Source: a virus
IMG/VR virus record: IMGVR_UViG_3300011115_000252
Coordinates: 1-26,054 of that record
Reading direction: 5' to 3' (one strand)
Length of the DNA: 26,054 nucleotides
The position numbers were made by a program, and so were the translations under genes. Within the stretch, counting starts at the first letter, position 1. Each line of letters begins with the position of its first letter. The notes below the pieces were generated by a model that was not told the DNA's origin, made no database searches, and was given only the letters and a program-made list of their open reading frames with translations. Of this stretch, positions 10,840 to 16,576 are shown in pieces.

Positions 10840-11193
10840 CTAGTAAAATATATGATTGTTAATAATAGTTCTTGGCTTCATGCCCCATTGATTGTTCAAG
10901 TCAATATGATGAAAGTAACTAGCGCCTTTGCTAGTATCTTTGATCTCTTGCTTGATAATTTTTTGGGATAATTCTATGAAGGGTTTGAGTGTGCCATATG
11001 AGGGAATAACTTTAGTCTTGGTAGTCCATTCAAATTGATTTCTTTTGAAGGTCTCCGAGCATATATTCTTCTGGTCAAAGTCTGCTCTCCGATAAAGCAC
11101 GTATCCCACTGCCACTTGGCCAGGGATTGGTTCACCCCTAGCCTCATGGAACATGGTCAAACTCATACACATCACTGCTGCAACGTCTAACAT
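10840..11193 (-). CDS. Cell wall hydrolase of SleB type
   Basis: 117 residues. The N-terminal half carries the SleB/CwlJ catalytic region, MFHEARGEPIPGQVAVGYV (E17 and E21), followed by VLYRRAD. The C-terminal half has the family pattern GASYFHH...W and the ending NNHIFY. Family members cleave peptidoglycan (amidase or transglycosylase). It has no signal peptide. It is transcribed away from the main lysis cassette, next to pqqA and divergent from it, so it is a second wall enzyme with a likely different time of expression. AAAGGAG precedes the ATG by a few bases. Confidence 0.85.
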   Translation of the reverse strand: MLDVAAVMCMSLTMFHEARGEPIPGQVAVGYVLYRRADFDQKNICSETFKRNQFEWTTKTKVIPSYGTLKPFIELSQKIIKQEIKDTSKGASYFHHIDLNNQWGMKPRTIINNHIFY

Positions 11194-11284
11194 AAAGTCT
11201 CCTTTGCTTAGGTAGCTTTCATGGTTATCCGTATATACTTTCTATATACTTTAGGCATAATGAACTCACGAAAGGAGAACTACT
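11194..11284. promoter_or_regulatory. Divergent control region between the SleB-like gene and pqqA
   Basis: 91 bases without a gene. It contains two copies of TATATACTTT at 11232-11241 and 11243-11252, exactly 11 bases apart (one helix turn). Each holds a TATACT that could be a -10 element. A CATAAT lies at 11256-11261. No good -35 was found for either direction. Ribosome-binding sites AAAGGAG face both genes. A copy of the repeated box (CTTTCATGGTT, 11216-11226) lies here too. The repeats may be operators. Confidence 0.45.
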
Positions 11285-11356
11285 ATGTGGACAACACCAG
11301 CAGCTACTGAAATGCGTTTTGGCTTTGAAGTTACAATGTATGTAATGAATAAGTAA
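11285..11356 (+). CDS. pqqA: PqqA: precursor peptide of the cofactor PQQ
   Basis: 23 residues: MWTTPA at the start and EMRFGFEVTMY in the second half. The invariant Glu15 and Tyr19 of the E-V-T-x-Y core sit at the positions and total length typical of PqqA. These two side chains become PQQ after PqqE (with PqqD) joins them and PqqB, PqqC and a protease finish the cofactor. AAAGGAG lies 7 bases before the ATG. The gene is alone on the + strand between leftward genes, with a terminator-like hairpin downstream, the mark of a separately expressed cargo gene. No PqqB-E gene is present, so host enzymes would be needed. Its 3' end overlaps the end of the opposing small membrane protein gene by 26 bases. 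Confidence 0.88.
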   Translation: MWTTPAATEMRFGFEVTMYVMNK

Positions 11357-11531
11357 TCCAAGCATACACAGAGAAGGCAATGCCTACGGAGACTTTAGTA
11401 GCTCTCCATATGCGTTGCCTTTTCTCTTTGGGTGACTCTAATGTCACCTCGTATTCATAGCCATTGATCTCTTTAAATGAGCGTGGGAAACGCCATTCAA
11501 AAGCATTAAAGTTAGTTTTGTATTGTTTCAT
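11331..11531 (-). CDS. Small membrane protein of unknown function
   Basis: 66 residues: a polar N-terminal part (NAFEWRFPRSFKEINGYEY), a basic stretch (KEKRQRIWRATK) and a hydrophobic C-terminus (VSVGIAFSVYAWITY). AAAGGA stands upstream of the ATG. The start overlaps the end of the ERF gene by 20 bases, so it is coupled to the recombination genes. Its last codons overlap pqqA on the other strand, and the pqqA terminator-like hairpin lies within it. Family unknown. Confidence 0.6.
   Translation of the reverse strand: MKQYKTNFNAFEWRFPRSFKEINGYEYEVTLESPKEKRQRIWRATKVSVGIAFSVYAWITYSLHTL
11374..11430 (+). terminator. Two-tier hairpin terminator downstream of pqqA
   Basis: Outer stem AAGGCAATGC (11374-11383) pairs with GCGTTGCCTT (11412-11421), 10 pairs with one G-U. 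Inner stem GGAGA (11388-11392) pairs with TCTCC (11403-11407). The + strand continues TTCTCTTTG, so it looks like an intrinsic terminator starting 18 bases after the pqqA stop. It lies within the coding sequence of the opposing small gene, which makes chance less likely but not excluded. Confidence 0.6.
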
Positions 11532-12252
11532 TTGGTTTTCCTTTCACATTGTTGATGCGAGTGGCTTGCTTGCCTATGTATTGCATCTTTACTGTTACTG
11601 GTAAGCGGTTTAGTGTAGGCTGGTTAGCTTCTACTAATGCTTTTAGTTTCGATATCTTATCCTCTGGATTAAGGCTAGAATTAACTAGCTGTTCAGAAAT
11701 TTCATCAAACTTTGCTTGCCATGTCAAGACATCTGTGAGTTCTAATGGGTCTTTGCCTGGAATATAGAAGGTAAATCCATTAGTTTGTTGCTTTTTTACA
11801 ACACTGCCAGCTCTTTCTGTGGCTAAATTGCCATCATCATCCTCTGGGGCTATGCCACAAGTAGCCATAAGGCTATATCTACGGGCATATGTCAGAGCTG
11901 AACCATATCCTTGTGGATCTTGCTTAGGTGCTGGCACATGTAAGATACCACCAGTTAAAGTCTCACCACTTTCATGGATTAATATGGTTTCAATCTTGAC
12001 ACCATTCTCACAATCATGAGTGGTTTGTATCAAGGCAATGCCATTATTATTGAGTGCATCTAAGACAGCTTCAATACATCCATCTAAAGACACATACTTA
12101 GATCTAAAGTGTGGATTGGTTGATGTTTTTAATGCTGGTGCAAACTCTTTCTGTGCCTTAACAAAGGCTGTTGCTATAGTTTTCATACTTTTCTCCTGTT
12201 GTTGTTGTAATTCACTCATAACTTCTACTTCAAAACGATCTTGGTCATTCAT
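11512..12252 (-). CDS. erf: ERF-family single-strand annealing protein
   Basis: 246 residues from the ATG at 12252, which has AAGGAGG about 7 bases upstream; an alternative start 7 codons earlier is less likely. Family motifs: FAPALKTSTNPHFRSKYVSL near the N-terminus, HESGETLTGG, then the hallmark GYGSALTYARRYSL and EDDDGN. ERF/Sak-type proteins pair complementary single strands for recombination and can circularise phage genomes. It neighbours the YqaJ-type exonuclease, its usual partner. The C-terminal third is a less conserved, charged extension. Confidence 0.9.
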   Translation of the reverse strand: MNDQDRFEVEVMSELQQQQEKSMKTIATAFVKAQKEFAPALKTSTNPHFRSKYVSLDGCIEAVLDALNNNGIALIQTTHDCENGVKIETILIHESGETLTGGILHVPAPKQDPQGYGSALTYARRYSLMATCGIAPEDDDGNLATERAGSVVKKQQTNGFTFYIPGKDPLELTDVLTWQAKFDEISEQLVNSSLNPEDKISKLKALVEANQPTLNRLPVTVKMQYIGKQATRINNVKGKPNETIQN

Positions 12253-12793
12253 ACATATCCTCCTTGACCTCATTCAAACCTACTGAAAAATCAAACAAAT
12301 GCATAGGCAAGAGCTTACTGAATGGAACATAGTGGCATCTATAGCCAGCATCCCCACCTAGTTTAGATCCAAAGTCCTTGAGCGGAGCTTCGTCTACTTG
12401 CTCATGCACTGCATAGCCTACTAATATTGCTTTCATTCCAGAGGTAATTGCTTTTGTTTCTCTTGGAACATCAATCAATATCTGCACATAAAAGTCTGGC
12501 TTTCTTTTACGAGCGTAATCTTCTCTTACAAGTAAGTGTAAATTATCTTGATAAGGATGAGCGCTTGTCTTGATCTCTATCTTATTAAAGAAATCAACCT
12601 TGCCTTTTGTGTTATACATATCATGAAGTTTCCAATCTTTTAAATACCACTTGGCAAATACTAACTCGCCAACCAATCCTAAGACTGTATCATAAGGTGA
12701 TGCCTTCGTTCTATTAACTTCCGTATACTTAGATGCTATTGTTGCTGCATCCAACATCTCTTGATCGATGTAAGTATAAGGTTGCCTTATCAT
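12245..12793 (-). CDS. PD-(D/E)XK nuclease-like protein
   Basis: 182 residues. GLVGELVFAKWYL gives the early Glu, and GKVDFFNKIEIKTS gives the D...E-x-K core (D and IEIK) of the PD-(D/E)XK fold. HLLVREDYARKRKPDFYVQIL fits the following strand-helix and matches restriction- or resolvase-like members of that fold. It lies between YqaJ exonuclease and ERF, with a 4-base start overlap with the former and an 8-base overlap with the latter. A role in DNA processing is probable; the exact substrate is not known. A non-catalytic relative is possible. Confidence 0.65.
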   Translation of the reverse strand: MIRQPYTYIDQEMLDAATIASKYTEVNRTKASPYDTVLGLVGELVFAKWYLKDWKLHDMYNTKGKVDFFNKIEIKTSAHPYQDNLHLLVREDYARKRKPDFYVQILIDVPRETKAITSGMKAILVGYAVHEQVDEAPLKDFGSKLGGDAGYRCHYVPFSKLLPMHLFDFSVGLNEVKEDMYE

Positions 12794-13746
12794 ATACGAT
12801 CCTTGATAGATAGTTTAGATTGTCTAATGACATACGCTTCTTTAGCTGGCACAGTTTTTGCTGGCTGTGCTTTATATTGACGCATAGGCCACGATATTTT
12901 GTAACGACCCGCATTACACACTTCTGCATCACGCATTTGCTCCATGATGTTGATCTGTAAGCGATCAATCTGATTCTCTAACTCCATGATTTGCTCACGA
13001 ATTGTAATGATCTTCTCAGCTTGTAGCTCAACTTCGGGTAACTCAATCGCACTCTTTTCCGCACGATCAAACACACGACTGGCTTCAAAAGAATTGTCAA
13101 GCGGATACCAATCTATTTCTTCATTAGATTTATACTTATCTAACTTAGCTTGGAATTCCTCAACAGCTTGATGAATCATATTGACTTGATCTTCATCACG
13201 CTCATACAAGAAAATACGAAGTGTTGTGCCACGATACAGCACGCATAGCGCACCCCACTTGGCTTTCATAATATCCATCTGTCCTTGCAACTGAATGACA
13301 CAACGATAAACAGCTGGGGTATCTTCGACATCCTGTGCTGTAAGCTTGGCCTCTAATATACCTAATCCATCTAACTTGATAGGCTTAGTGCCATCATTCA
13401 TCACATAAATGCCATTACCAACATCGGTGAATATTTCATTCCCGACACCCTGAGCAGTGCCATCAAGCGAGCAAGCCAGTGGAATGCTGTCATGGAAATA
13501 GGGCTGATCGTGATCGAGGTTATCAATCTCACAGCCTAATCTTTTAACAGCTTCGGATAGGATTAACTTCTCTGTAAGATTGCCCCATATCATTGGCTCA
13601 TTCTCAATAAACTCTGGCTCGATGCCTTGATAGTATTCAATGCTTTGTTTTAATTCATCATTCGGCGTTCTAAACTTGCTAAAACCTAACAAGGCTGGAA
13701 GCCTTGAGCATGACATCATGTCATTCGGAGTCAGTTTCCCCACCAT
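12790..13746 (-). CDS. YqaJ-type viral exonuclease
   Basis: 318 residues. SRLPALLGFSKF and MIWGNLTEKLIL (early Glu) open the domain. IPLACSLDGTAQG (Asp), LGILEAKLTAQD (E-x-K) and VIQLQGQMDIMKA (Q-x-Q) give the lambda-exonuclease/YqaJ catalytic order. A C-terminal coiled coil (ITIREQIMELENQIDRLQIN) extends it, as in many phage versions. It would resect double-stranded ends to feed the ERF annealing protein. It starts inside the end of the recombinase gene (26-base overlap). AAAGAGAG is upstream. Confidence 0.88.
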   Translation of the reverse strand: MVGKLTPNDMMSCSRLPALLGFSKFRTPNDELKQSIEYYQGIEPEFIENEPMIWGNLTEKLILSEAVKRLGCEIDNLDHDQPYFHDSIPLACSLDGTAQGVGNEIFTDVGNGIYVMNDGTKPIKLDGLGILEAKLTAQDVEDTPAVYRCVIQLQGQMDIMKAKWGALCVLYRGTTLRIFLYERDEDQVNMIHQAVEEFQAKLDKYKSNEEIDWYPLDNSFEASRVFDRAEKSAIELPEVELQAEKIITIREQIMELENQIDRLQINIMEQMRDAEVCNAGRYKISWPMRQYKAQPAKTVPAKEAYVIRQSKLSIKDRI

Positions 13747-14422
13747 ATTTTCTCTCTCTTTCTTTAATTGTATTGAAATACCATTGAACGTTAGAGCCTG
13801 TCCATTGGCGGTTAAGATAAGTCTTGATACCTAACTCATTGAGCTTCTTTGCAATGCCAACACATGTAGGCTTATCCGCCTGTTGTATTGCAATATCCAC
13901 CCATTGTTTAATGCTTAAAGCGTATTGTGCTGTGTGATAAGCGCGTCTATTGCCTCCAGCTGTGCCAATCTCTTTGAGTTTATCTCTAGGCGCTCCGAGC
14001 TGGATGCCTCTAGCTTTGGCAGCTCTCAAAGCGTTTTTAGTATTGATCGAGATTTGCCGCCTTGTTTCCTCGTTTAATACAGCTCGAATATGCAATTCGA
14101 AAATACTTGCTTTGGGGGTTTCAGCGATGACCAATGGAACCTTCTTTTCCAATAGCTCAGACATGAGATGAACAGAACGCGTTAATCTACACTGTTTAGC
14201 TACCAATAGGAATTGATCTTTTTCAAAATCTAAAAGTGCAAGCGCCTTGAGCAGCTCAGGCCTATGATTATGAGAGCCGCTCTCGATGTCGGTAAACTCG
14301 GCCACGATCTCAGCGCCTTCCGCTCGGGCGTAGGCGTAGCATATTTGCTGCTGCGCCTCTAAACCTAGCCCGCTTTCACCTTGCTTATCCGTAGACACGC
14401 GATAATAAGCTATAAATTTCAT
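13721..14422 (-). CDS. Serine recombinase (resolvase/invertase type)
   Basis: 233 residues. The N-terminal catalytic domain starts MKFIAYYRVSTDKQG, with R8 and the nucleophile S10. It includes LGLEAQQQ, SGSHNHRPELLKAL and VAKQCRLTRS, and a long helix region with NTKNALRAAKARGIQLGAPR. The C-terminus has a short DNA-binding part (IAKKLNELGIKTYLNRQW) without the large Cys-rich domain of integrases. It may integrate, invert or resolve DNA. No attachment site could be identified. A repeated-box leader (14429-14440) supplies AAAGG before the ATG. Confidence 0.85.
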   Translation of the reverse strand: MKFIAYYRVSTDKQGESGLGLEAQQQICYAYARAEGAEIVAEFTDIESGSHNHRPELLKALALLDFEKDQFLLVAKQCRLTRSVHLMSELLEKKVPLVIAETPKASIFELHIRAVLNEETRRQISINTKNALRAAKARGIQLGAPRDKLKEIGTAGGNRRAYHTAQYALSIKQWVDIAIQQADKPTCVGIAKKLNELGIKTYLNRQWTGSNVQWYFNTIKERERKYGGETDSE

Positions 14423-14446
14423 ATATAACCTTTCATGGTTTAAAGT

Positions 14447-14653
14447 TTAGTCTTGAAAATCTATTGCATTTTTAACAGCATATTCAATCAAGTTATATAA
14501 TTCCTCGCCGTATTCTGTATTGCGAGTGCCGTCTTGATTATCTGGATCATGCTCAATGCATTTTTTAGCAATGCCAAAATGATCTACAATCTCAAAATAA
14601 ACTTCCTGAGTGATATTGCATACTTGATCTAATTCTAAAATGTTGATACTCAT
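14447..14653 (-). CDS. Small acidic protein of unknown function
   Basis: 68 residues, acidic and probably helical (VYFEIVDHFGIAKKCIEHD, YGEELYNLIEYAV). It has a strong upstream signal, the repeated box with AAAGG 8 bases before the ATG, which supports reality. It lies between the serine recombinase and a 28-residue membrane peptide in the leftward operon. I do not recognise the family. Confidence 0.55.
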   Translation of the reverse strand: MSINILELDQVCNITQEVYFEIVDHFGIAKKCIEHDPDNQDGTRNTEYGEELYNLIEYAVKNAIDFQD

Positions 14654-14691
14654 TATTAATACCTTTCATGGTTTCGGCCAAAGTTAGCCCC

Positions 14692-14717
14692 TTAAAGCCC
14701 CTATAAAGAGGCTTTAA
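14692..14717 (-). other. Intergenic stem-loop in the leftward operon
   Basis: TTAAAGCC (14692-14699) and GGCTTTAA (14710-14717) pair perfectly over 8 bases with a 10-base loop, between the 28-residue peptide gene and the 68-residue gene. There is no U-tract on the minus strand, so it looks more like a processing or stability element than a terminator. Confidence 0.5.
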
Positions 14718-14726
14718 AAGATAACT

Positions 14727-14813
14727 CTAGAATGCTAGGAATAGAATGAGCCAACAATAAGCGCTTATAAATCCTAATACTAGCCAAATAAAGTGTTTTA
14801 ATAAGTTAGTCAT
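14727..14813 (-). CDS. Tiny single-TM membrane peptide
   Basis: 28 residues: MTNLLKHF, then a hydrophobic helix (IWLVLGFISAYCWLILFLAF). The repeated box variant AACCACGAAAGG (14820-14831) provides AAAGG 6 bases before the ATG and overlaps the stop of the upstream 289-residue gene. The box supports translation. The function is unknown; single-TM phage peptides of this size often act on host membranes, but nothing here shows that. Confidence 0.55.
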   Translation of the reverse strand: MTNLLKHFIWLVLGFISAYCWLILFLAF

Positions 14814-14829
14814 AATGTGCCTTTCGTGG

Positions 14830-15699
14830 TTAATTTAATGATAATTGATGCGCGATGCTTTCGATCTCGCTATATGGAATAGTGTGACAGCCAACAGTTA
14901 AGACATCATCTTTAAAGCTATTAACTGAGTAATTGCCTAAATGAATAGAATGATGATCTTTGACATATGAAACGCCTTTTTCATGCCATGACTTAATCAA
15001 ACCCCAAAACTTAATAGCATGATCGACAGGAATGCGAGCGCCTCGCGTGGTTTGAATTTCATCATCTTTAATACGTAGCGCTGTAACCTCAAAGAAGTTA
15101 CGCACATCTAAACCCGCGCGCCAATTCTCGAGGGCTTCCGCTTGCTCTTTGATTCTTTTAGCTTGTGCAATCTTAGCTAATTCTTTGGCCTTTTTGTCAG
15201 CTTCTATAGCTTGCGCCTGAATAGATGTAAGATCGGGCATTGCATAATTTAGATTTAATAATTGCGCGTATTTATTAAGATTTTCATAGATAAAAATAGC
15301 CTCTGAATAATATATTCCAGCTCGAATGCGAGCGCGTGAAGCCTTAACTAATAGTTTAGCGGCCTTATCCTCGCTATGTTTTAGAATAAGGGTTTCAAAA
15401 TCTCTTTGGCCATATACTAAAGTGTTTAAGTTCATTTTAGGAATGTTTAAAAAGATAGTGTCAAAGTGATTTGAGGCGCTTCTAGCGTGGCCTTGATGTT
15501 TTGATGTGCTGTGGCTATATGATGCGGTGTTGATAATTACAGTATTGCGCTCAGGTATTAAATGCGCGATAGCTGTGTTATAACTGAATAATACGCCATA
15601 ATGGCATGACATCGAATTAGCGCTTTTATAAACGCTTGAATCAGGGTCATTCGCCCAAATATGTGCAAGTTCTGAATTGCTGGAGTATTTAGTTCTCAT
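14830..15699 (-). CDS. Conserved phage protein of unknown function
   Basis: 289 residues. The N-terminus has the pattern of a widespread phage hypothetical family: ELAHIWAND, a central YGVLFSYNTAIAHLIPE, and NTASYSHSTSKHQGHARSAS. A Lys/Ala-rich coiled coil lies at about 160-195, and the C-terminal ~80 residues are beta-rich. The family's biochemical role is unknown. The gene lies early in the leftward operon behind the repeated box (15708-15719), two bases after the preceding small gene. I recognise it by pattern only. Confidence 0.75.
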   Translation of the reverse strand: MRTKYSSNSELAHIWANDPDSSVYKSANSMSCHYGVLFSYNTAIAHLIPERNTVIINTASYSHSTSKHQGHARSASNHFDTIFLNIPKMNLNTLVYGQRDFETLILKHSEDKAAKLLVKASRARIRAGIYYSEAIFIYENLNKYAQLLNLNYAMPDLTSIQAQAIEADKKAKELAKIAQAKRIKEQAEALENWRAGLDVRNFFEVTALRIKDDEIQTTRGARIPVDHAIKFWGLIKSWHEKGVSYVKDHHSIHLGNYSVNSFKDDVLTVGCHTIPYSEIESIAHQLSLN

Positions 15700-15700
15700 T

Positions 15701-15868
15701 TTAGTTACCTTTCATGGTTAAGTTAAAATTATTTACTATTTGATTTGCTTCTTTTAATGGAATGTTATAGACACTTGAAACTGAATAAGGGTCTACTTCT
15801 AAATTGAGCTTATATGCTTTTAAAAGACTATCCATAATTAGCATATATTTATTGATTGAAGTTACCAT
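15701..15868 (-). CDS. Small protein, first gene of the leftward operon
   Basis: 55 residues (MVTSINKYMLIMDSLLKA at the start), hydrophilic and probably helical. A variant of the repeated box (AACTTTGAAAGG, 15877-15888) places AAAGG 8 bases before the ATG. Its stop ends one base before the ATG of the 289-residue protein, so the two are coupled. It is first behind the divergent promoter region, a place often used for early regulators. No DNA-binding motif was recognised. Confidence 0.55.
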   Translation of the reverse strand: MVTSINKYMLIMDSLLKAYKLNLEVDPYSVSSVYNIPLKEANQIVNNFNLTMKGN

Positions 15869-15914
15869 TTTATATACCTTTCAAAGTTTAAAAAATGTGT
15901 GTTGCAAAAGTAAG

Positions 15915-15964: not shown

Positions 15965-15977
15965 TATAATAACTAAA
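15965..15977 (+). promoter_or_regulatory. Rightward promoter of the winged-helix gene, possibly leaderless
   Basis: A TATAAT at 15965-15970 stands 6 bases before the ATG at 15977. Transcription would start about at the ATG, and there is no Shine-Dalgarno. The -35 region 17 bases upstream (TAGGTA) is weak, as in activator-dependent promoters. Confidence 0.45.
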
Positions 15978-16576
15978 TGATTGATTCTCAATATAAAATT
16001 CCCGAGCAAATAAAGCTAAAGACAGTTAAAAACGAGGATTTAAGGCGCTTTTGCGTGGTTCCAATTAAGGCATTCTTAAATAAAAAGCTAACAGGGGAAA
16101 ATCTAAGAGTTCTAGCTGTTTTAGCTTCTTATGCTAACAAGGGCGGATTCTCTTTTGTAAGCTGTCTCACAATAGCTAAAGACTTAGGATGCACAAGTCA
16201 AAACATAAGTAAACACCTAAAAAAGTTAGAAGCTCAAGGGGTCATTGAATCATTCAATAACTACTTTCCAAAGCTCAAAGGGAACACAAGGCGCATTATC
16301 TATGATGACAAAATAAAGAGAGAAGATGTCAGTGAATACGATCTAAAGAACTCAGAGATTAGCGAGATATTAAAGACTAATAAGATATTAAATGAAGTCA
16401 ATGAGAATGATTCTCAATATCATGTAGTTTCACAATCAGCAATTCAGAAGGATGATGATATAACTAGCTTGTTTAATACTATAACAAAAGAGAGCCAACT
16501 TATAGAAGCTGAGAAGCTATTAGCACAAGGATTAACACCTAAAGAAGTCAGAACCCGCATGGCTCTAGGTTCATAA
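15977..16576 (+). CDS. Winged-helix DNA-binding protein (replication or regulatory)
   Basis: 199 residues. About residues 28-100 read as a winged helix of the type seen in phage and plasmid replication initiators and MarR-like regulators: ENLRVLAVLASYANKGGFSF, then LTIAKDLGCTSQNISKHLKK (the recognition helix) and LEAQGVIESF. The C-terminal half is acidic and low in structure, with a final helix pattern (LLAQGLTPKEVRTRMALG). It sits at the divergent promoter region with no Shine-Dalgarno, as repressor genes can. Beside it is a 650-base non-coding region that could hold an origin. Repressor or initiator cannot be separated from sequence alone. Confidence 0.65.
   Translation: MIDSQYKIPEQIKLKTVKNEDLRRFCVVPIKAFLNKKLTGENLRVLAVLASYANKGGFSFVSCLTIAKDLGCTSQNISKHLKKLEAQGVIESFNNYFPKLKGNTRRIIYDDKIKREDVSEYDLKNSEISEILKTNKILNEVNENDSQYHVVSQSAIQKDDDITSLFNTITKESQLIEAEKLLAQGLTPKEVRTRMALGS

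Follow-up and report, generated by a model that had tools for sequence, protein, structure and literature searches.

A start-associated leader box with a predicted mini-hairpin, likely a translational switch and cassette junction, in Methylophilales-related phages

Introduction

The start-associated sequences (SAS) of cluster K mycobacteriophages are 13-bp asymmetric repeats (GGGATAGGAGCCC) found at the Shine-Dalgarno (SD) sequence, mostly in one orientation and a few nucleotides before the start codon of non-structural genes of unrelated families (PMC3203893). They are conserved beyond their match to the anti-SD, are absent or rare in the host and have no known function; about half of the sites are linked to a 17-bp inverted repeat, the ESAS (PMC3203893). 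SAS were named in 2011, and the statements on their role found in the literature up to 2025 still call it unknown. In cluster EF Microbacterium phages, ten copies of a different SAS (GGGAAAGGACCCC) lie at ribosome-binding sites, unusually conserved and of unclear role (PMC7302621). In Citrobacter phage Mordin, a 26-bp repeat precedes eight hypothetical genes and was compared with SAS by its authors (PMC4611695).

Regulation of many messages by one factor is exemplified by RegA of phage T4, a small protein that competes with ribosomes at the start region and so represses about 30 mRNAs. RegA sites lack a clear conserved sequence or structure, and the T4 hairpin operator, that of gene 43, is described for gene 43 itself (PMC3014915). 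Short conserved sequences at gene borders, proposed as seeds of exchange, are known as lambdoid boundary sequences and from the PeSL cassettes of T4-type phages (PMC3029335, PMC4503421).

Here we describe a 12-base box, AACCATGAAAGG, which precedes five leftward genes of a phage sequence of 26,054 bases (the window) and recurs in its relatives. The closest known kind of element is the SAS of cluster K, cluster EF and Mordin. Like the cluster K SAS, the box is a short asymmetric repeat, in one orientation a few nucleotides before start codons, that heads genes of different families (52 protein groups) and is conserved beyond pairing with 16S rRNA, as judged from permuted controls that keep AAAGG. 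It differs from them in sequence and in hosts: it does not match the consensus GGGATAGGAGCCC, and by sequence it is no member of that family. The cassette boundary reported below is a feature of the box that the SAS passages of PMC3203893 do not describe. The cluster EF repeat belongs to unrelated phages and has an unrelated sequence, and the Mordin repeat is longer; both resemble the box in position and conservation. PeSLs, as characterized in the passages on them, combine a promoter with a stem-loop, whereas the box amounts to about 14 bases at the ribosome-binding site. The reading proposed below shares with RegA the notion of one factor acting on many mRNAs, and with gene 43 the hairpin operator. 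No earlier description of the box turned up in searches of open-access literature on SAS, cassette boundaries, operator hairpins and OM43 phages; term searches of two OM43 phage papers returned no repeat of this kind in the text searched. On balance we favour, with some reserve, the view that the box is a start-associated mini-hairpin leader of Methylophilales-related phages, likely a translational switch, whose left edge is a cassette junction.

Materials and Methods

The window is IMG/VR virus record IMGVR_UViG_3300011115_000252. Related loci were gathered with the protein of its 289-codon box-headed gene (32 loci), with its serine recombinase (33 loci) and with box patterns. Removal of near-duplicate contigs reduced the set from 94 to 73 loci (582,625 bases), a few of which are still overlapping slices of the same contig (for example, L138 and L213). 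A hold-out set of new loci, drawn with three other box genes, was reduced in the same way from 49 to 24. The main table covers open reading frames (ORFs) of at least 30 codons; shorter ORFs were listed apart (8 sites). Loci L188-L217 were fetched by a pattern that includes the T after the box and the ATG, and L068 and L101 by a pattern that includes the ATG; of one batch of box-pattern loci, the counts include just L068, L013 and L101. A second count of placement and pairing, which left out the loci fetched by T- or ATG-bearing patterns, upheld the result. Box positions are numbered from 0. Conservation of the twelve box bases (0 to 11) is partly built in by the two-mismatch limit of the search; base 12 lies outside that limit.

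Results

A repeated box ahead of five leftward genes

Protein comparison showed that the gene content and order of the window match those of the marine OM43 phage MEP301, whose host is Methylophilales bacterium FZCC2181. Amino-acid identity is 84.5% for the terminase, 78% for the head-tail connector and 77% for Erf (over 122 of 253 residues). Judged from these relatives and from the presence of a pqqA gene in the phage, the host of the window phage would also be one of the Methylophilales. The boxed genes are flanked by a replication-initiator-like gene that runs rightward (15977-16576) and by a recombination block made up of the serine recombinase, a RecE-like exonuclease (12790-13746, minus strand, E 4e-28) and an Erf-like single-strand annealing protein (11512-12273, minus strand, E 5e-44). 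The latter two genes lie downstream of the boxed ones and have no box. In the window, boxes occur only in the non-structural region.

The preliminary description of this DNA reported the box in front of five consecutive leftward genes, with zero to two changes per copy, between 14429 and 15888. Both the range and the counts (2, 0, 1, 0 and 0 changes, in the order of transcription) are correct. The first copy (AACTTTGAAAGG, 15877-15888, minus strand) carries two changes, is followed by T and lies 8 nt before the ATG of a 55-codon gene (15701-15868, minus strand) for which no PHROG was found; its stem could still form as A-U, C-G and U-G. The second, exact and followed by T (15708-15719, minus strand), overlaps the 3' end of that 55-codon gene and lies 8 nt before the ATG of a 289-codon gene (14830-15699, minus strand). 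The product of the latter matches PHROG 7247, of unknown function (E 3e-32), and no Pfam family. The third (AACCACGAAAGG, 14820-14831, minus strand) has one change and is followed by C, so that the outer pair, A.C, is unformed; it stands 6 nt before a 28-codon hydrophobic ORF (MTNLLKHF...). The fourth, exact and followed by T (14662-14673, minus strand), lies 8 nt before a 68-codon gene (14447-14653, minus strand) without a PHROG or Pfam match. The fifth, exact and followed by TT (14429-14440, minus strand), lies 6 nt before the gene for a 233-codon serine recombinase of the resolvase/invertase type (13721-14422, minus strand; PF00239, E 2.6e-23). Past the recombinase, no further box-headed gene was seen within 1500 nt in the tabulated loci.

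The three exact copies compare with 0.01 expected from 100 shuffles. When up to three mismatches are allowed, the 24 copies found do not exceed the 26.9 expected, so that only near-exact copies before genes are meaningful.

The stretch of about 150 nt that follows the 289-codon gene (14674-14819, minus strand) contains the 28-codon ORF and a hairpin-like repeat (AAAGCCTC...GGGGCTTT). The small ORF recurs in relatives, and a ttggccga-like end immediately ahead of the next box often stays the same where the gene behind it changes.

Occurrence among relatives

A motif search in relatives bore out the proposal, made from the window alone, of a shared leader element conserved beyond the SD. In the 73 loci, which include those fetched by box patterns, 148 sites with at most one mismatch precede ORFs, against a mean of 1.1 for 60 permuted controls of the AACCATG plus AAAGG type. 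The highest control count, 17, came from AATCCAG, which is the box of a sister group of phages (see below). The nearer relatives do not conform to a pattern of AAAGG retained without AACCATG; there, boxes head gene after gene. In 78 loci for which protein similarity was the sole criterion of choice, each of the 65 distinct exact copies has an ATG 4-11 nt downstream.

Altogether, 133 exact copies represent 86 distinct contexts. The base after the box is T in 98% of near-exact contexts, some of them from loci fetched with that T in the pattern. Among 138 distinct contexts (up to two mismatches), base 0 is A in 137, base 1 is A in 118, base 2 is always C, and the base after the box is T in 113. 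The 206 sites with at most two mismatches head 52 protein groups, mostly small; 37 of these groups have a copy with at most one mismatch and 29 an exact one. Nine groups were scanned against Pfam: one matched serine recombinase, one an ArdC-like anti-restriction protein, one GP88 and one, weakly, a clamp-like family, and five had no match.

No exact or one-mismatch copy was found in the four more distant isolates MEP301, P19250A, Venkman and MEP401. As these are cultured Methylophilales phages, the element belongs to a subset of such phages. A search of bacterial and archaeal genomes for the extended box ahead of an ATG gave 25 single, scattered hits, none in an entry titled Methylophilales, where chance would give about 45 if sequence were uniform (18 bases, six spacings and two strands over 257 Gb). 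The search thus gave no sign of a host element.

A promoter or transcription start at the box was considered and discarded: upstream of 40 independent contexts there is no -10 peak (at most 4 per position), and the 20 nt upstream are A+T-rich sequence only. The single-subunit RNA polymerase family PF00940 was found in none of seven records, but control genomes likewise gave none.

Predicted pairing across the SD sequence

The box can be drawn as a hairpin, ACC[AUGAAA]GGU, in which the SD is embedded and bases 1, 2 and 3 pair with bases 12, 11 and 10 (A-U, C-G and C-G); the preliminary description had not suggested this pairing. The predicted energy of the stem is -2.0 to -3.8 kcal/mol for variants with a six-base loop. 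When 98 contexts were folded, the mean unpaired probability was lowest over AACC (0.37) and highest over AUG (0.84).

Only one column pair can covary, since the SD fixes the G-G partners of the other two. At this pair (1/12), complementary bases were found in 97 of 102 contexts from protein-chosen loci (5000 shuffles: mean 70.0, maximum 82), in 133 of 138 contexts of the full set (mean 101.6, maximum 114) and in 73 of 77 when a single context was kept per group and sequence (maximum 66). In the hold-out set all 52 unseen contexts were paired, the shuffle maximum being 51. Wherever base 1 is not A, base 12 is its complement (20 of 20 contexts: 16 U-A, three G-C and one C-G), so that all four pair types are represented. 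The type switches within orthologous gene groups A, D, K and S. In one hold-out locus (L283) three adjoining genes carry U-A with the rest of the box unchanged, and one of the three looks by eye like a group S relative. Independent double changes number perhaps four to six, with related boxes inflating the counts. Base 3 faces a G of the SD, and each of the 190 contexts (138 plus 52) has C or U there, the two bases with which G would pair in RNA.

Nine other column pairs served as controls. Eight stayed at shuffle level, although several of them cannot vary and say little; pair 0-12, which shares base 12, reached 114 of 138 (mean 112.2), and 190 of 5000 shuffles were as high. The next outward pair, 0/13, is mostly A.A and is paired in 24 of 138 contexts. 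The exceptions at pair 1/12 include the window's own copy at 14820 and its counterparts ahead of the same small ORF in L136 and L148, all with A.C. In two other relatives the box of this ORF has diverged (L152) or pairs (L101); overall, four of the eight short-ORF sites are unpaired. L153 also shows A.C, and for AACTCTGAAAGGG pairing requires a shift of register and yields just -0.9 kcal/mol. One unpaired site is probably due to chance.

A sister group of phages has a box of its own, AATCCAGAAAGG, at 12 of 73 AAAGG sites in 20 loci. It retains a stem, AUCC[AGAAA]GGAU, with a loop whose length differs from that of the main box. Its carriers are L167, L169, L171, L176-L178, L181 and L187, where it is mostly followed by AT and heads genes of 51, about 500 and 322 codons. 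At 171 non-box AAAGG sites, 3-bp stems were found 32 times with a five-base loop (null maximum 31), 12 of these being the sister box, and 25 times with a six-base loop, which equals the null maximum.

Folds can also be drawn for the cluster EF consensus, GGG[AAAGGA]CCC, and for the Mordin repeat, UCC[UAAACU]GGA. Extending the hairpin to cluster K is unsupported: parts of six phages contain 103 SAS sites, of which 29 are changed in the stem; 3 of the 29 are paired, and at up to two mismatches 1 of 19 stem changes is paired. At the level of sequence comparison, compensation of stem changes sets the box apart from the cluster K SAS.

These data also bear on the simplest account of the box, that it is a strong but drifting SD context in which GAAAGG pairs with an anti-SD ending in CCUUUC and the remainder reflects chance or recent ancestry. 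Six bases could indeed pair where 16S rRNA ends in CCTCCTTTCT. The sequence GGATCACCTCCTTTCT is present in 32 of 299 sampled Pseudomonadota genomes, presumably at 16S ends (the sample is anonymous), and the lack of near-exact boxes in the four isolates would also fit. Such a context predicts neither the rarity of permuted controls nor copies in front of so many protein groups, and the two covarying bases lie outside the anti-SD match. The permuted controls, the hold-out set and the recount on protein-chosen loci have largely refuted this account, which we now regard as highly improbable.

The ATG of the box and the class-2 leader

In the copy before the recombinase, the ATG of the box opens a five-codon frame (MKGYI) that ends in an ATGA overlap with the gene, as the preliminary description had noted; the frame is there. 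Initiation at this ATG is another matter. A translated mini-ORF (MKGx-stop) could couple its termination to initiation of the gene, and 54 of 85 class-1 contexts with the ATG do have a stop in its frame no later than the gene start. A stop is likewise found in 27 of the 53 contexts (out of 138 distinct ones) that lack it, and the difference is not significant (Fisher p 0.16). Although GTG or TTG replaces the ATG in 20 of those 53, the other 33 have none of the three codons. The ATG is in frame with the gene in 13 of 85 contexts, and no SD of its own is visible. Translation from the box ATG is therefore not borne out, the MKGYI frame is probably incidental, and a mini-ORF appears very improbable, even though the leader described next gives it one point in favour.

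The partial copy reported near pqqA is AACCATGAAAGC (11215-11226, minus strand). This class-2 copy lies in the leader of a cell-wall hydrolase gene (10840-11193, minus strand; PF07486) that has a separate SD, AAAGGAG, further downstream. Among 23 orthologous leaders found by protein similarity, 17 keep the copy, and all 17 retain ATG AAA GCT NNN TAA/TAG, as a mini-ORF would require; the other six, at 53-58% identity, are the most distant. Several unrelated kinds of sequence occur immediately upstream of the copy. The comparison indicates that the box persists in a leader whose SD lies elsewhere, and that it once more marks a seam. In the fold of the window's leader (-8.0 kcal/mol), the box pairs with the start-codon region; four versions gave -8.0, -7.7, -5.6 and -4.3 kcal/mol, and this pairing is closely shared by two of them.

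Four nucleotides upstream of the class-2 box lies an inverted repeat, GTATATAGAAAGTATATAC (11231-11249, minus strand), which unrelated sequence replaces in some relatives; lying between pqqA and the hydrolase gene, it may be an operator or promoter. The pqqA gene itself (11285-11356, plus strand) encodes a 23-residue PqqA precursor peptide (TIGR02107, E 5.6e-10). A near-identical peptide is encoded in all four isolates checked (MEP301, P19250A, Venkman and MEP401), in the last three without an annotated feature. A study of Lake Baikal, in its passage on auxiliary metabolic genes (AMGs), reports viral PqqA but describes P19250A as lacking all of its AMGs (PMC7678222).

The left edge of the box

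The order of box-headed genes is shuffled among relatives: group C is followed by A, D, F, G, I or N, and group B by any one of seven groups. In 45 pairs of the same gene (more than 85% nucleotide identity) with different neighbours, identity was 0.97 within the box and 0.92 over the first 30 nt of the gene; upstream of the box it came to 0.44 over the nearest 10 nt (background 0.39) and 0.36 at 30-10 nt (background 0.30). In 122 pairs of different genes with the same neighbour, the last 10 nt upstream were 0.76 identical and the gene was at background. For 23 of 33 gene/neighbour combinations, every pair loses similarity no more than two bases to the left of the box; in the other 10, similarity continues beyond the box in some or all pairs, the longest extension being 58 nt. 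The right edge is harder to place (12-35), as one spacer or start codon looks much like another. The same successor group is kept less often at box junctions than elsewhere (0.264 versus 0.593, pair-weighted); by group means the values are 0.52 (12 groups) and 0.66 (65 groups at other junctions). As a pattern of similarity, the left edge of the box behaves as a mosaic boundary where neighbouring genes appear to be swapped. Spread by duplication of genes with their leaders, which had been suggested for the window, is correct insofar as the leader travels with the genes; the genes themselves are a pool of unrelated cassettes swapping at the box, not duplicates.

The presence of Erf and RecE-like genes makes short-homology exchange plausible, and the Erf-like protein is a candidate for carrying it out at the boxes. 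The box could then be a neutral recombination seam, conserved as exchange homology with no regulatory role. The sharp left boundary, the lower retention of successors at box junctions and the nearby recombination genes all fit with that. It would predict neither the paired changes nor the strict spacing of 4-11 nt to the ATG, nor that the class-2 box be kept where its GAAAGC is not an SD. We find a purely neutral seam quite unlikely.

The junction pattern, together with a serine recombinase in the same cluster, also raises the question of whether the box acts in DNA, as a dyad (AACC N6 GGTT) bound by a phage protein or as the site at which the recombinase moves cassettes. A palindrome, too, predicts complementary arms and covariation. 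Yet every exact copy is oriented towards an ATG 4-11 nt away, the sister box has a loop of different length, and T opposite G at base 3 (27 of 138 and 25 of 52 contexts) breaks a DNA dyad and leaves an RNA stem intact. Crossover sites of resolvases and invertases are dyad-symmetric and span about 26 bp or more; the box is conserved over only about 14 bases, and its arms of 3-4 bp are far shorter. Some box loci, moreover, have no recombinase in the tabulated cluster (L151 and L152, for example, which are fragments). A DNA dyad is thus less likely than an RNA hairpin, and we consider it an unlikely basis for the box.

Discussion

The observations fit most readily with a box that acts as RNA. On the mRNA, its second to fourth bases (ACC) would pair with the two G residues of the SD and the U that follows, giving a stem of three pairs over the loop AUGAAA, or of four if another U follows. 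Half of the ribosome-binding site would then lie in the stem and half be displayed in the loop, an arrangement which the compensatory changes favour. The trait expected of an operator hairpin, conserved secondary structure over the ribosome-binding site, thus seems to be present, as judged from one informative pair. With a predicted stability of -2 to -4 kcal/mol, ribosomes should be able to open such a stem. A weak stem alone would entail a mild loss of initiation, and identical copies suggest a common reader; hence the operator reading. The most likely use of the box would be as a shared translational switch, with a trans-acting factor of phage or host stabilising or opening the hairpins of many genes together, while the phage's own Erf/RecE-type annealing may exchange cassettes at roughly 14 bases of homology.

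A bolder, tentative version of the operator reading, possible although we would not expect it to hold, makes the boxed genes a plug-and-play regulon. A phage-encoded factor would read one hairpin, the AUGAAA loop and its stem, ahead of every accessory gene, and box/reader pairs would have diverged among phage groups, as the types AACC..GGU, AUCC..GGA and AGCU..GGC might reflect. If so, any cassette recombining in at the box would fall at once under the timing control of the phage.

For the favoured reading, a translational leader with a cassette junction, the relatives provide a natural set with enough sequence turnover to reveal a structural constraint, the compensatory pairing around the SD. 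Its evolutionary consequence would be that unrelated genes are exchanged at the regulatory element itself, and the box looks like a standard "socket" for gene swapping and joint control of translation. This bears on what SAS-type elements do and on how phages bring new genes under existing control.

A second set of phages, found through a 57-codon protein (L276-L297), also has boxes. The box genes that its tabulated members have in common with the first set come from few groups only, such as O, which suggests exchange across phage groups. The group O cassette (L174, L198, L209 and L214) encodes the ArdC-like anti-restriction protein, with PF08401 and Peptidase_M78 in the L214 copy, hinting that the box cluster may hold counter-defence genes.
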